A stretch of 64,000 nucleotides of DNA from the NCBI RefSeq assembly GCF_001428545.1, contig NZ_LMHZ01000001.1, positions 310,961-374,960 of the forward strand, read 5' to 3'. The notes under the pieces are model-generated. The model ran no database searches, was not told the origin of the DNA, and saw nothing but the letters and a program-made list of their open reading frames with translations. Source of the stretch: Noviherbaspirillum sp. Root189 (GTDB lineage Bacteria > Pseudomonadota > Gammaproteobacteria > Burkholderiales > Burkholderiaceae_D). Position numbers and translations under genes: made by a program. Within the stretch, counting starts at the first letter, position 1. Each line of letters starts with the position of its first letter. Of the stretch, positions 42,749 to 47,499 are shown one piece after another.

Positions 42749-42780
42749 CTGCAATGCTCCATCGAAAAATTATGCGGGTT

Positions 42781-42796
42781 GGTACCCTTAAGTACC
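42781..42796. promoter_or_regulatory. TetR operator candidate, copy 1
   Basis: GGTAC-CCTTAA-GTACC: perfect 5-bp inverted arms around six bases, preceded by TT. It lies 33 bases upstream of the metal-dependent hydrolase start. Confidence 0.72.
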
Positions 42797-42822
42797 GGTA
42801 GCATATGGTGGTGCCGGCTATT

Positions 42823-42838
42823 GGTACTGTCAAGTACC
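42823..42838. promoter_or_regulatory. TetR operator candidate, copy 2
   Basis: GGTAC-TGTCAA-GTACC: same arms and spacing as copy 1, again preceded by TT, with its start 42 bases (four helical turns) from the first. It lies 34 bases upstream of the TetR start at 42872, so it would allow autorepression. Confidence 0.72.
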
Positions 42839-42871
42839 AGCTTTAGAAAAGAAAGTCTAAAAAACGAAAAG

Positions 42872-43477
42872 ATGACGCAAATTCCGAAAACACCTGATCC
42901 GGCTGTTGCTCACCGTCACCGCCTGCTGGAAGGCATGGCGCAAGCTGTTGCGGCCAAGGGCTACGCCGAGACCACCATTTCCGATATCGTGCGCGAAGCG
43001 TCCGTTTCGCGCCGCACTTTTTACGAATATTTCAACACCAAAGCCGATTGCCTGATCGCCCTGTACACCGCAGCCAGTCACAACGCGCTTGACGTACTGC
43101 GCAATGCTATCGATCCTGCTCGTCCATGGCAGGCACAAGTGGAAACGGCAATCCATGCCTATCTTGGCTGTCTCGCACAAAACCCGGTACTGATGCGTAC
43201 GCTATTTATCGAGATCCTCGGACTCGGTGCCGAAGGACTTGCCGCCCGACGCAGGGTCAACAATGAAATCGCGAGTTTCATGCTCAAGGTCATCAACGCC
43301 GAGCAGGTTGGCAAGCCGGGTGACACGGCACTAACGGCCGACATGGCCATGACCGTAGTTGGCGGTATCAATGAACTGGTGTTGCAGGCCATAGAACAGG
43401 ATAGTGCCGCCGACGTTGCCAAGCTGGCCGAACCGGCGATCCGCCTGGTCAAGGCGGTCACCCGGGATGTCGTCTGA
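42872..43477 (+). CDS. TetR/AcrR-family regulator (partner of the metal-dependent hydrolase)
   Basis: The start is set at MTQIPKTPDPAVAHRHRLLEG (42872) because the preceding frame from 42779 would cover both operators. No strong SD is visible. The 201-residue protein has a TetR HTH at residues about 18-60 (ETTISDIVREASVSRRTFYEYF) and an alpha-helical C-terminal domain. It diverges from the PF10118 hydrolase gene and is expected to bind the two GGTAC-N6-GTACC sites in the spacer. The likely effector is a lipid or hydrophobic compound, by analogy with other TetR-PF10118 pairs; this is inference. Confidence 0.87.
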   Translation: MTQIPKTPDPAVAHRHRLLEGMAQAVAAKGYAETTISDIVREASVSRRTFYEYFNTKADCLIALYTAASHNALDVLRNAIDPARPWQAQVETAIHAYLGCLAQNPVLMRTLFIEILGLGAEGLAARRRVNNEIASFMLKVINAEQVGKPGDTALTADMAMTVVGGINELVLQAIEQDSAADVAKLAEPAIRLVKAVTRDVV

Positions 43478-43543: not shown

Positions 43544-46162
43544 TCACTTCTTAGTCAGCCCGAGCGTCTTTTTCATCGCCGCAGTCAAGGTCTGGCGTGT
43601 CGTCAGAAAATCCTGCCAAGGATCCTGCTTCAGTGTATCGAGGCGTTCCGGCAGCGTTGCGACGGTCCATGCCGTCGCCTTGTCAATGTGGTCCAGTTCT
43701 TCCCAGGCGATCGGCACCGACACCGGTAGACCAGGACGCGCACGTACCGAGTAGGGCGCAACGGTGCTGGCATGACGACGGTTGCGCTGGAAATCGACAA
43801 AGACTTTTTTCACCCGGTTTTTTTCGCCCATGGTGGCGCTGAACAACTTCGGCAGCGTACGCGCGAGATGCTTGGCAATCGCTTGCGAGAAGTCGGTGAC
43901 CTCGTCCCATGTATGGCGACGCGCAAGCGGCACCACGATGTGCAGGCCTTTGCCGCCACTGGTTTTCAAAAAGCTTTTCAGGCCGAGCTCATCGAGCATG
44001 ACCTTCGTCAGTTGCGCAGCTTCCTTCACGGTCGTCCATGGCAATGAGGGATCCGGATCGAGATCGAAGACCATATTGTCAGGCCGGTCAATCTTGTCCG
44101 CTGTCGCACTGCAGATGTGCAGTTCCATCATGCCCATCTGGCTTGCTCCGGCGAGCGCATGCGCATCGTCGATAGCCATCAACGGGTCATGCTCGGGATC
44201 CAGGGAAGGGTCGAGCAGGCGTATCCCGGGAATGGACAGTTTTGTCGCATGCTTTTGAAAGAACTGTTCTCCGCGTATGCCCTCGGGACAGCGCAACAGA
44301 TACACCGGCCGATTGTTCAGGTAAGGCAACAACATAGGCGCGACCCGCGCGTAATGGGTTGCAACATCGAATTTGGTGAGGCCGGTGCTTGGGTCAACAA
44401 CCCGGTCAGCGTGGGTGATGCGGATACCGGCGACCTCATCCTTGCCTGCCTGTTGCGTGGGGGCAGGGTTGGCCTGACGACGCTTTACTGCTTTCTCCGG
44501 CGTTCCGGCCATGATGGTTGCCGGACCATTGGAAACCGGTACAGACTGCTCACGTCGAATCTCCTTCGCAGGCTTGTCTTCACGCAGCCCATGAAAAACT
44601 GCTTGCCGCACAATGCCGTCGGTGGTCCATTCGGCAAAGGAGATTTCGGCGACCAGCTGCGGTTTGACCCAATGCGTTTCCGCGCGACGGACGCCGGCCG
44701 GCATGCGTTCGAACGGACGTTTATCAATTTCCAGCCTGCTCAGGCGCTGGTGGAGCGCAAGCAAGGTCTTGTGGTCGAAGCCGGTACCAACGCGGCCGGT
44801 ATAGCGCAATTTTCCGTCTTCATACACGCCGAGCAACAGGGCGCCCAGGAACTTGCGGCTGCCTTGCGGTTCCGTATAGCCGGCGATGACGAATTCCTGA
44901 CGGTGCTGACACTTGAGTTTGATCCAGGTGTTGCTGCGCTTGCCGACGTAAGGCGAATCGGCAAGCTTACCGATGATGCCTTCCATCGACATGCCGCACG
45001 CGCTGGTGAGCAGCTGCTGTGGCGGCTCCGACATCGGCGCACTGTATCGGATCGCGCTGTTGTCAGCGTCAGTCAGCAATTTACTAAGTCGTGCGCGGCG
45101 GTCGCTGAGTGCGGCCCCGCGCAAGTCGTAGCCGTTCAGGTAAGGAACATCAAACAGGAAATAGAGAATCCTGGACGGACTTTTTTCATCGAAGGCATTT
45201 TGCAGCAGCTGGAACGAGGGAACGCCATGTTCATCGAGGACGACAATTTCACCATCTAGCCATGCAGTCTTCAGCCTAAGGCCCTTGATGGCTTCCACCT
45301 GCTTTGGCAGGCGAGCGGTCCAGTCCTTGCCGTCACGCGTGAACAACCTGACTTCGCCGTTGTCGACGCGTGTCAGCAGGCGGTAACCGTCAAATTTGAC
45401 TTCAAAGAGCCATTCCCCAGCCGATGGTACTTCATCGACCAGCGTGGCAAGTTGCGGCAACATGGTTTCCGGCAATGGCGCTTTGACCGAGCCTGGCATT
45501 TTTCCCTGGGCCGGGGTTTTAGATACGGTACGCGATGCCCTGGTATTCAAGTGGGCATCGTTGGTCTTCACTGGTGCCTGGGCTTTTTTCGCGACGCTGG
45601 ATTGAAAGGCAGGCGCGCCCTGCAGCACGCTGTCAGGCAGCGCTTCGGTGATGTCGTAGTCCTTGATGGAGCGTGCGGTCTCATCCTTTTCCTTGATGAG
45701 CAGCCACTGTTCCTTGCCGCCGCTGCCAGCGAGGCGGGTGCGCACCAGGGTCCAGCCGCCATGCAGTTTTTCTCCGTCGAGCCGGAACTTGATCTTGCCT
45801 GCCCGGTAAGCAGCCGCCGGGTCTTCCTGCGGTTCCCAATAGCCAATGTCCCAGACATCGACATGGCCGGCGCCATACTGGTGTTCAGGTATGTCACCCT
45901 CGAAATCGATGTAATCGAGAGGATGGTCTTCGACATGCACCGCGAGGCGCTTTTCCGCCGGGTCGAGGCTGGGCCCCTTTGGCACTGCCCAGCTTTTCAG
46001 CGTGCCGTCGATTTCAAGCCGAAAGTCATAGTGCAGGCGGCGCGCATCATGTTTTTGCACGACGAAGCGCAAGCGCTCCGATAGTGCAACAACCATTCCT
46101 TTCGGTTCCGGCGTGATGCCGAAGTTGCGCTTGGCGTGATAGGTCGACAGCTTGTCGGGCAT
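43544..46162 (-). CDS. ligD: Multifunctional ATP-dependent DNA ligase D (NHEJ)
   Basis: This 872-residue protein has all three LigD modules in the order phosphoesterase, ligase, polymerase. The 3'-phosphoesterase (residues about 20-170) shows RRLHYDFRLEIDG and HVEDHPLDYIDFEG. The ligase (about 225-530) has the adenylation lysine in FEVKFDGYR, near residue 255. The polymerase/primase (about 570-860) has ITHADRVVDPSTG and the metal-binding VFDLDPDPSLPW. LigD seals double-strand breaks together with Ku, which recruits it to ends. Here the upstream position normally held by ku carries only a short remnant, so LigD may act without Ku or with a copy elsewhere. GGAGG lies just upstream of its start. 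Confidence 0.93.
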   Translation of the reverse strand: MPDKLSTYHAKRNFGITPEPKGMVVALSERLRFVVQKHDARRLHYDFRLEIDGTLKSWAVPKGPSLDPAEKRLAVHVEDHPLDYIDFEGDIPEHQYGAGHVDVWDIGYWEPQEDPAAAYRAGKIKFRLDGEKLHGGWTLVRTRLAGSGGKEQWLLIKEKDETARSIKDYDITEALPDSVLQGAPAFQSSVAKKAQAPVKTNDAHLNTRASRTVSKTPAQGKMPGSVKAPLPETMLPQLATLVDEVPSAGEWLFEVKFDGYRLLTRVDNGEVRLFTRDGKDWTARLPKQVEAIKGLRLKTAWLDGEIVVLDEHGVPSFQLLQNAFDEKSPSRILYFLFDVPYLNGYDLRGAALSDRRARLSKLLTDADNSAIRYSAPMSEPPQQLLTSACGMSMEGIIGKLADSPYVGKRSNTWIKLKCQHRQEFVIAGYTEPQGSRKFLGALLLGVYEDGKLRYTGRVGTGFDHKTLLALHQRLSRLEIDKRPFERMPAGVRRAETHWVKPQLVAEISFAEWTTDGIVRQAVFHGLREDKPAKEIRREQSVPVSNGPATIMAGTPEKAVKRRQANPAPTQQAGKDEVAGIRITHADRVVDPSTGLTKFDVATHYARVAPMLLPYLNNRPVYLLRCPEGIRGEQFFQKHATKLSIPGIRLLDPSLDPEHDPLMAIDDAHALAGASQMGMMELHICSATADKIDRPDNMVFDLDPDPSLPWTTVKEAAQLTKVMLDELGLKSFLKTSGGKGLHIVVPLARRHTWDEVTDFSQAIAKHLARTLPKLFSATMGEKNRVKKVFVDFQRNRRHASTVAPYSVRARPGLPVSVPIAWEELDHIDKATAWTVATLPERLDTLKQDPWQDFLTTRQTLTAAMKKTLGLTKK

Positions 46163-46536
46163 GGCAATCCTCCTTGCTCCTTACTTTGATGCGGCGTGCA
46201 GGCGGTACGTCAATGCACCGACTTCGAGGGTCTGCCGCGACTTGCCGTTTTGCGTGCGGCGGGCGGCCTGTTCGAAGCTGATTGCACCTTTCCACATGAC
46301 ACGTGCCATGACCAGTCCTTTCAGGGAAGCTGATTGGTTGAAATGTTAATTGTTCGACATGGGTTGCTTCACCGAGTTCTCGAGGCTGCTTCGACTTCCG
46401 GTATTCGTTTTTTGCGAACAAAAGATCATTATTTATTCGCTTTTTATATTTACGCAGAGCCCGTACCATGGTGCCGTTGTGAATGGCCGGCGCCTCGCGC
46501 AAGGCGGCACACACATACTTATTCTTCGGAGGAAAC
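46163..46536. other. Spacer between ligD and the Tim44-like gene
   Basis: This 374-bp stretch holds the ku remnant (46181-46309) on the minus strand. Its right half (about 46330-46480) is noticeably AT-rich and should carry the promoter of the Tim44-like gene; TATATT near 46447 is a possible -10. No other gene is seen. Confidence 0.55.
46181..46309 (-). pseudogene. Remnant of ku (internally deleted), upstream of ligD
   Basis: A 42-codon frame opens with MARVMWKGAISF, the near-invariant start of bacterial Ku (usually followed by GLV-x-IPV). It then departs from Ku at once and stops 18 bases before ligD. An intact AAGGA SD stands seven bases before the ATG. In the next frame, the following bases read PPAARKTASRGRPSKSVH-stop, a basic Ala/Lys/Arg stretch like Ku C-terminal tails. 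This is consistent with a frameshifting internal deletion that fused the Ku start to its tail. The Ku start is directly visible; the deletion model is inference. The remnant may still be translated and might couple ligD translation. Confidence 0.72.
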
Positions 46537-47499
46537 ATGAAAAAGTTTTTGGTCACCTTGATGGTTGCGGTCAGCGCGCTGTCTGTCGTCGTCACAGACG
46601 CGCAGGCCAAGCGCATGGGTAGCGGCGGGTCGTTCGGCAAGCAGTCGCAGGGTGTCAGCCGTCAGTCGGCCGCACCGTCACAAAGTCAGGCGGCCCCTAC
46701 GGCGGCCAAAGCTGCGCCGGCCGCTGCTGCTCCTGCAGCCGCTGCCAAACCGGCTAGCCCGTGGAAAGGCATTCTCGGCGGCGCACTGCTCGGTCTCGGC
46801 CTCGGCGCATTGCTTTCGCATTTCGGCCTTGGCGGTGCAATGGCCAGCATGATCAGCACAATACTGATGCTTGCCCTCCTGGCTGGTGCGGCGTTCTTCA
46901 TCTACCGCATGATCATGCGTAAGCGTGAAGGCGGAGCAATGGCGAAAAGCGGCTTGACCCCTGCTTACGCGAACGGCTCAGGCGCGGGCTCGGGCGGCTA
47001 TACCCCCGAAATCGGTTCACGCATCGAACCGACGCAGCCAGCGGCACTGCAGTCTTCGTTCAGTGCATCGGGCAACGAGAGCGACAATAACGTCAACAAT
47101 GGCGCAAGCCATGCACCATGGGGTGTGCCGGCGGACTTTGACAGCGCGGGTTTCCTGCGTCATGCAAAGACTTACTTTATCCGTCTGCAAGCTGCCTGGG
47201 ACAAGGCCGATGTGAATGATCTGCGCGAGTTCACATCACCTGAGATGTTTGCGGAAATGAAGCTGCAGTTGCAGGAACGCGGCGCGTCGGCCAACCATAC
47301 CGATGTGGTGTCGCTGAACGCGGAACTGCTGGGCATGGAAACGGTCGGCAACGACTACCTTGCCAGCGTGAAGTTCTCGGGCATGATCCGCGAATCGGAA
47401 AACGCGGCTGCGGAACCGTTCACCGAGGTATGGAACCTGAGCAAGCCGGTATCCGGCAATGGCGGCTGGATCCTGGCGGGCATTCAGCAGCTGGCGTAA
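46537..47499 (+). CDS. Tim44-like domain membrane protein
   Basis: The start at MKKFLVTLMVAVSAL (46537) has GGAGG six bases upstream. The 320-residue protein has a signal sequence, an Ala/Pro/Gln-rich linker (residues about 40-90), and two or three hydrophobic segments (GILGGALLGLGLGALLSHFG and MISTILMLALLAGAAFFIYRM) with Gly-rich character. The C-terminal Tim44-like domain (about 210-320) includes FLRHAKTYFIRLQAAWDKADVNDLREFTSPEMFAEMK (in parts). In bacteria these proteins sit in the inner membrane and have no proven role; the fold is shared with mitochondrial Tim44 and MBA1. It has its own terminator. Confidence 0.87.
   Translation: MKKFLVTLMVAVSALSVVVTDAQAKRMGSGGSFGKQSQGVSRQSAAPSQSQAAPTAAKAAPAAAAPAAAAKPASPWKGILGGALLGLGLGALLSHFGLGGAMASMISTILMLALLAGAAFFIYRMIMRKREGGAMAKSGLTPAYANGSGAGSGGYTPEIGSRIEPTQPAALQSSFSASGNESDNNVNNGASHAPWGVPADFDSAGFLRHAKTYFIRLQAAWDKADVNDLREFTSPEMFAEMKLQLQERGASANHTDVVSLNAELLGMETVGNDYLASVKFSGMIRESENAAAEPFTEVWNLSKPVSGNGGWILAGIQQLA

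Follow-up and report, generated by a model that had tools for sequence, protein, structure and literature searches.

The ku gene upstream of ligD in Noviherbaspirillum sp. Root189 is a pseudogene: sequence homologous to ku stands where relatives carry ku, and it is unable to encode the Ku core. NHEJ with a ring-forming Ku has probably been lost from this strain, and the explanation that best fits the observations as a whole, held here with considerable confidence, is that ku was deleted, that LigD is either a leftover or works independently of Ku, and that a short Ku encoded elsewhere in the genome has been kept for a non-clamping task. The window, i.e., the whole stretch of DNA that was analysed, comprises 64,000 nucleotides of the Root189 genome (G000). 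Fifteen genomes of the genus were compared, including G000, N. aerium (G009), N. malthae (G008), N. aridicola (G013), N. denitrificans (G007), N. galbum (G003), N. autotrophicum (G014), and N. massiliense (G006).

The ku scar and the retained ligD

The features of the locus within the window are as follows:

42779..43477, plus strand: TetR-type regulator beyond ligD, flank marker (Pfam PF00440)
43544..46162, minus strand: ligD, 872 codons, with phosphoesterase, ligase, and primase-polymerase modules (Pfam PF13298, PF01068/PF04679, PF21686)
46181..46309, minus strand: 42-codon out-of-frame fusion resulting from the deletion (direct sequence reading)
46210..46272, minus strand: 3′ remnant of ku, read in the neighbouring frame (NRPPAARKTASRGRPSKSVH*) and closed by the former ku stop codon (comparison with eight intact ku genes)
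46274..46309, minus strand: 5′ remnant of ku, first 12 codons (MARVMWKGAISF) (33 of 36 bases as in ku of G009)
46273..46486, minus strand: leader of the former ku-ligD operon, conserved, together with the ku start (73% identity over 217 bases against G009)
46483..47499, plus strand: divergent neighbour with a Tim44-like domain, locus marker (Pfam PF04280)

The frame at 46309-46181 on the minus strand, with the translation MARVMWKGAISFEQAARRTQNGKSRQTLEVGALTYRLHAASK, has GAAAGG upstream of its ATG and begins with MARVMWKGAISF, followed by 30 residues unlike Ku. All three of the base differences that separate its first 12 codons from the N. aerium ku start are synonymous. Past codon 12, the neighbouring frame reads NRPPAARKTASRGRPSKSVH*, which resembles the C-termini of intact congeneric Ku; this stretch is in the ku frame and is read out of phase in the frame continued from the scar start. 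The first-pass annotation, which had described a Ku-like start of 12 codons with an SD followed by divergence, and a Ku-like tail in the +1 frame, was thus borne out at both ends.

For the tail, a comparison was made between the 66 bases past codon 12 and the final 90 bases of eight intact ku genes, with 500 dinucleotide shuffles scored for each. The observed score was reached by no shuffle for G009 and G001, by one each for G005 and G007, by three for G013, and by four for G006, while the matches to G011 (46 shuffles) and G012 (105 shuffles) are at chance level. When the tail was placed freely on the whole of ku, the gene end was the best position in five of the eight (G009, G005, G013, G001, and G011), at or no more than 4 bases from the end of the stop codon; it lay 21–45 bases further into the gene in G006 and G007, and G012 gave an unrelated position. 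On the other side of the scar, the leader shared with G009 continues into the gene, and the match stops at ku base 37. The 42-codon fusion terminates 18 bases ahead of the ligD start codon and may be translated as a leader; a Pfam search of this frame returned no match, so no Ku core is encoded.

The comparison of ligD upstream regions that had been proposed for finding the breakpoints places them at about codon 13 and about 20 codons before the ku end. Between these points, an ancestral ku-ligD operon underwent an internal deletion of ku, estimated at about 800 bases from the ~290-codon ku of relatives, with ligD left whole. Because the leader before ku is retained, ligD is probably still served by the old operon promoter. 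The idea of a decayed ku directly upstream of an intact ligD is supported, but the gene was lost through an internal deletion that also shifted the frame, and not through diffuse decay. One objection foreseen, that the intact ku of relatives might show no alignment to these bases, falls away, since such alignment was found and both ku ends are recognisable in the window.

The LigD of G000 is the full three-module enzyme that had been read from the DNA, with all three modules matched in Pfam, and it carries the motifs KFDG at 256 and DLDP at 700. Its pN/pS against six congeners (0.316–0.357) is no higher than that of the other pairs (0.318–0.506) in a comparison that excludes the LigD of G011, although the synonymous sites of these pairs are near saturation, so that a recent relaxation of LigD is possible. 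Of the flank markers, the Tim44-like neighbour is present in all seven genomes searched, and the TetR-type regulator adjoins the locus in G008, G009, and G010.

Erosion of the ku-ligD operon in the genus

Ten of the 15 genus genomes have the LigD polymerase module, and an intact ku of 290–297 codons lies directly upstream of ligD in eight of these 10, which supports reading the scar at the same spot in G000 as a former ku. In N. malthae (G008), ku is missing and LigD is reduced to 521 codons, with phosphoesterase and polymerase modules and without the ligase module (L148:1282-2844). In N. denitrificans (G007), ku is present and LigD lacks the phosphoesterase module (L150:1756-4443); the ku stop codon there directly abuts the start of this LigD. 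G010, the sister of G000, has neither ku nor ligD at the locus, and a GGDEF-EAL gene and a DUF1294 gene stand between the flank genes in place of ku-ligD (L143:3426-6692). Full Ku and LigD are both lacking from four further genomes (G002, G003, G004, and G014), and the second flank was not found in the 8 kb around their Tim44-like gene.

An rpoB tree pairs G000 with G010 and G008 with G009, each with 100/99 support (bootstrap unsettled). Since G009 keeps ku and its sister G008 does not, G008 and G000 most likely lost the gene independently. A recent loss of NHEJ, one of the outcomes foreseen by the first-pass annotation, is favoured by these varied losses from the operon in G008, G007, and G010. 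Further full-length Ku genes of another lineage are found at L089:2864-3748 (G012) and L090:5971-6861 (G013); their products start with MAARSIADL and MASARSLADL, respectively, and they are not beside ligD in the stretches examined.

A short Ku carried throughout the genus

A whole-genome search of G000 for Ku returned a single Ku-family match, located on C23 and covering profile positions 67-171:

G000:C23:298386-299033 (L032:8387-9034): short Ku gene, following a hemerythrin gene (PF02735 match)

The match to PF02735 spans profile positions 70-171, with an E-value of 1.2e-21 and 77.9 bits (cut-off 25), and a profile search against solved Ku gives an E-value of 9.6e-25; on these profile scores, the short Ku is homologous to the Ku beta-barrel family. 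Two-component NHEJ, comprising a full-length Ku and LigD, was accordingly not found in G000, whose sole Ku-family match in the whole-genome search is confined to positions 67-171. The suggestion that a second ku lies elsewhere holds with one restriction: one other Ku-family gene exists, but it is without the DNA-encircling part. A second working ku is rejected for the 90-contig draft assembly, in which the only other Ku-family match lacks residues 1-71.

The short Ku is present in 14 of the 15 genus genomes, the exception being G012, a 520-contig assembly. It occurs in all five genomes that have neither full Ku nor LigD and accompanies full Ku in seven of the eight that retain it. A fragment peculiar to G000 is excluded by this distribution. 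Outside the genus, an N-terminally short match was seen in none of the 108 Ku-bearing family genomes (245 family genomes were sampled, 123 with Ku), which for this sample also rules out the short Ku as a common family form. Among 398 genomes sampled across the phylum, of which 89 have Ku, N-terminally short single matches occur in at least four other genomes (G483, G374, G338, and G643) and split matches in at least two (G531 and G483); pieces of this kind thus also exist outside Noviherbaspirillum.

Anatomy and predicted fold of the short Ku

The short Ku protein has 216 residues in G000 and 139 in G002. Its start was taken to be a GTG with GAAAGG or GGAAGG located 7 bases upstream in 12 of the 14 genomes; G011 has GGAGAG instead, and G006 has no such motif. 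This start is putative, because the motif bases also encode residues in the older frame and because an ATG lies in frame at a more upstream position in G003, G007, and G010. In alignment, residue 1 of the short Ku corresponds to residue 72 of the 295-residue G009 Ku. In the comparison with the solved Ku of M. tuberculosis, chain residue 98 lines up with profile position 5; chain and native numbering differ by 22, as set by the GLVN turn that is numbered 12-15 in the available text of PMC12784962, and Ku residues 1-71 are thus missing from the short Ku.

The cryo-EM analysis of Ku in PMC12784962, in the part of that text at hand, defines the bridge as residues 23-91 and lists hydrogen-bonded DNA contacts at 21, 33, 43, 44, 46, 58, 62, and 88. 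Beginning at Ku residue 72, the short Ku lacks hairpin 1, most of the bridge, and seven of these eight contacts, with only position 88 left. It matches the profile of bacterial Ku (PF02735) and aligns with the solved structures (PDB 8v53, 9i91, and 9vnq), but differs from them in having no equivalent of residues 1-71. The bridge and DNA-contact residues for encircling DNA were not found in the alignments to full and solved Ku, and the short Ku, judged from its sequence, looks incapable of encircling DNA. The conserved part comprises residues 14-93; outside it the protein is acidic, then basic and variable. A structural model of the N. aerium short Ku has low scores (mean pLDDT 50.5, pTM 0.31); a Foldseek search with this model gave seven matches at E ≤ 0.001, all of them to bacterial Ku, but with TM ~0.3.

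Selection on the short Ku and its origin

The core of the short Ku is under strong purifying selection, including between two genomes that lack full Ku and LigD. Over the 80-codon core, nonsynonymous and synonymous changes number 4 and 22 between G004 and G014, the two genomes in question (P 3.6e-10), 1 and 18 between G008 and G009, 6 and 46 between G000 and G010, and 15 and 36 between G001 and G005; by a simple neutral count, P lies between 4e-21 and 4e-10 in all four close pairs. No constraint is seen in the first 13 codons, and that on the tail is weaker than that on the core (P 1e-6 to 0.014). The pN/pS of the short Ku core exceeds that of the full Ku core in seven of seven compared genome pairs with both forms, narrowly in two, and the short Ku core is therefore less constrained than its full-length counterpart.

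All 14 short Ku form one clade, with support of 100/97 in a first tree built without the additional full-length Ku of G012 and G013, and of 99/97 in a second tree that includes them. In the second tree, this clade joins the ligD-linked Ku of the genus and the Ku of L129, a MAG labelled Paucimonas (99/97). The branches of the Ku tree are long, and two family loci (L091 and L092) were left out of both trees. A hemerythrin gene lies upstream of the short Ku on the same strand in all 14 genomes, 10 of which were recovered by regular expression and the remaining four by tblastn; the gene-order clustering took in antisense frames and is drawn on for hemerythrin only. In L129, a hemerythrin gene is directly upstream of a full-length Ku. 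The G003 copy of the short Ku still has a recognisable, degenerate Ku N-terminus, its score being reached by 0 of 500 shuffles against each of eight full Ku. On the simplest reading, a full-length Ku linked to hemerythrin would have lost its first third and given rise to the short Ku; as L129 shows no specific grouping with the short clade, the case for descent from that locus is one of gene order.

C-terminal sequences in the genus have a shared trait of their own: all eight ligD-linked Ku end in basic residues and a final His, the hemerythrins (14 of 14) and some short Ku end likewise, and among the 28 Ku of other genera sampled from the family, none does so.

What remains of end joining

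As there is no full Ku in the strain, LigD is without the ring that brings it to ends; no Ku ring could form on DNA ends, and classical Ku-LigD end joining would be lost or very weak. LigD may be a recent leftover, or it may be retained to fill gaps, trim ends, and ligate independently of Ku. In the short Ku, the central strands and helices are preserved but the DNA grip is not; a protein-binding role is therefore expected for it, possibly with the hemerythrin-type protein encoded before it as the partner. On balance, with confidence only a little above even, the short Ku is taken to be a ring-less, genus-wide Ku paralogue, expressed after the hemerythrin gene, that shed its DNA-gripping half and is selected for a non-NHEJ task (e.g., protein docking or stress response), and that in at least five species has outlasted both LigD and full Ku.

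A role for LigD alone in base-excision or gap repair would explain why LigD is kept; this reading is held tentatively and below even confidence. The LigD of G000 is complete and evolves no faster, by pN/pS, than that of its congeners, and the accessible text of PMC4770248 reports a 5′-dRP lyase activity of LigD with a proposed base excision repair role, which suggests that LigD could act alone in base repair. Against this, the loss of ligD in the sister G010 and of the ligase module in G008 makes any Ku-independent role dispensable nearby, and B. subtilis LigD without Ku gave no product in an end-joining assay, according to the portion of PMC13201618 available. That the short Ku replaces the lost one, recruiting LigD to breaks without a full ring so that a reduced NHEJ survives, is improbable. 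It is the only Ku-family gene detected in G000, and the core fold and helix region appear to persist in it; yet it is found alike in the five genomes without LigD and in seven of the eight that keep full Ku, it is without nearly all the published DNA-contact residues, and its C-terminal half, a part of Ku linked to LigD recruitment in the same text, is poorly conserved.

The contrary view, in which the short Ku genes are pseudogenes that decay slowly and independently, is likewise unlikely. In its favour, the frame has just 139 codons in G002, this copy and those in G006 and G011 are divergent, constraint on the tail is weak, and the start codon is a putative one; but no internal stop occurs in any of the 14 frames, nonsynonymous changes in the core are far below neutral expectation in all four close pairs, the genes form a single clade, and the upstream hemerythrin gene is kept on the same strand in every case. 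As for the scar itself, an assembly artefact that hides an intact ku in the living strain is scarcely credible: G000 is a draft of 90 contigs, but the scar lies inside a 382,673-base contig, the completeness of the genome is given as 100, and the ku tail in the scar has diverged from the tails of congeners in the normal way.

Known systems and significance

Genomes with LigD only are already known. The survey of bacterial NHEJ in PMC7719229, as far as its available text extends, describes repeated gains and losses of NHEJ, and G000, with LigD and no full Ku, resembles its LigD-only genomes; however, 90% of these are without the POL and PE domains, whereas G000 has all three LigD modules, a visible deleted ku, and a short Ku elsewhere. 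With the Streptomyces KuA, KuB, and KuC (PMC5124664, available text) the genus shares several Ku-like genes, some of them unlinked to ligD; the Streptomyces proteins have 302-383 residues and a full core, whereas the extra copy in Noviherbaspirillum is without the first 71 residues. The open-licence literature yielded nothing on Ku or LigD in Noviherbaspirillum, nor on a bacterial Ku shortened at the N-terminus. More surprising than the scar is the genus-wide Ku derivative, apparently kept for something besides clamping DNA ends.

The scar provides an example, dated by its neighbours, of bacterial NHEJ coming apart, in which decay may proceed by losing ku first while LigD stays, or by LigD losing a single module. 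Should the short Ku prove functional, it would show that the Ku fold can be of use without closing around DNA, and the role of the rest of Ku would be addressable by a one-gene deletion in species that have no other part of NHEJ.
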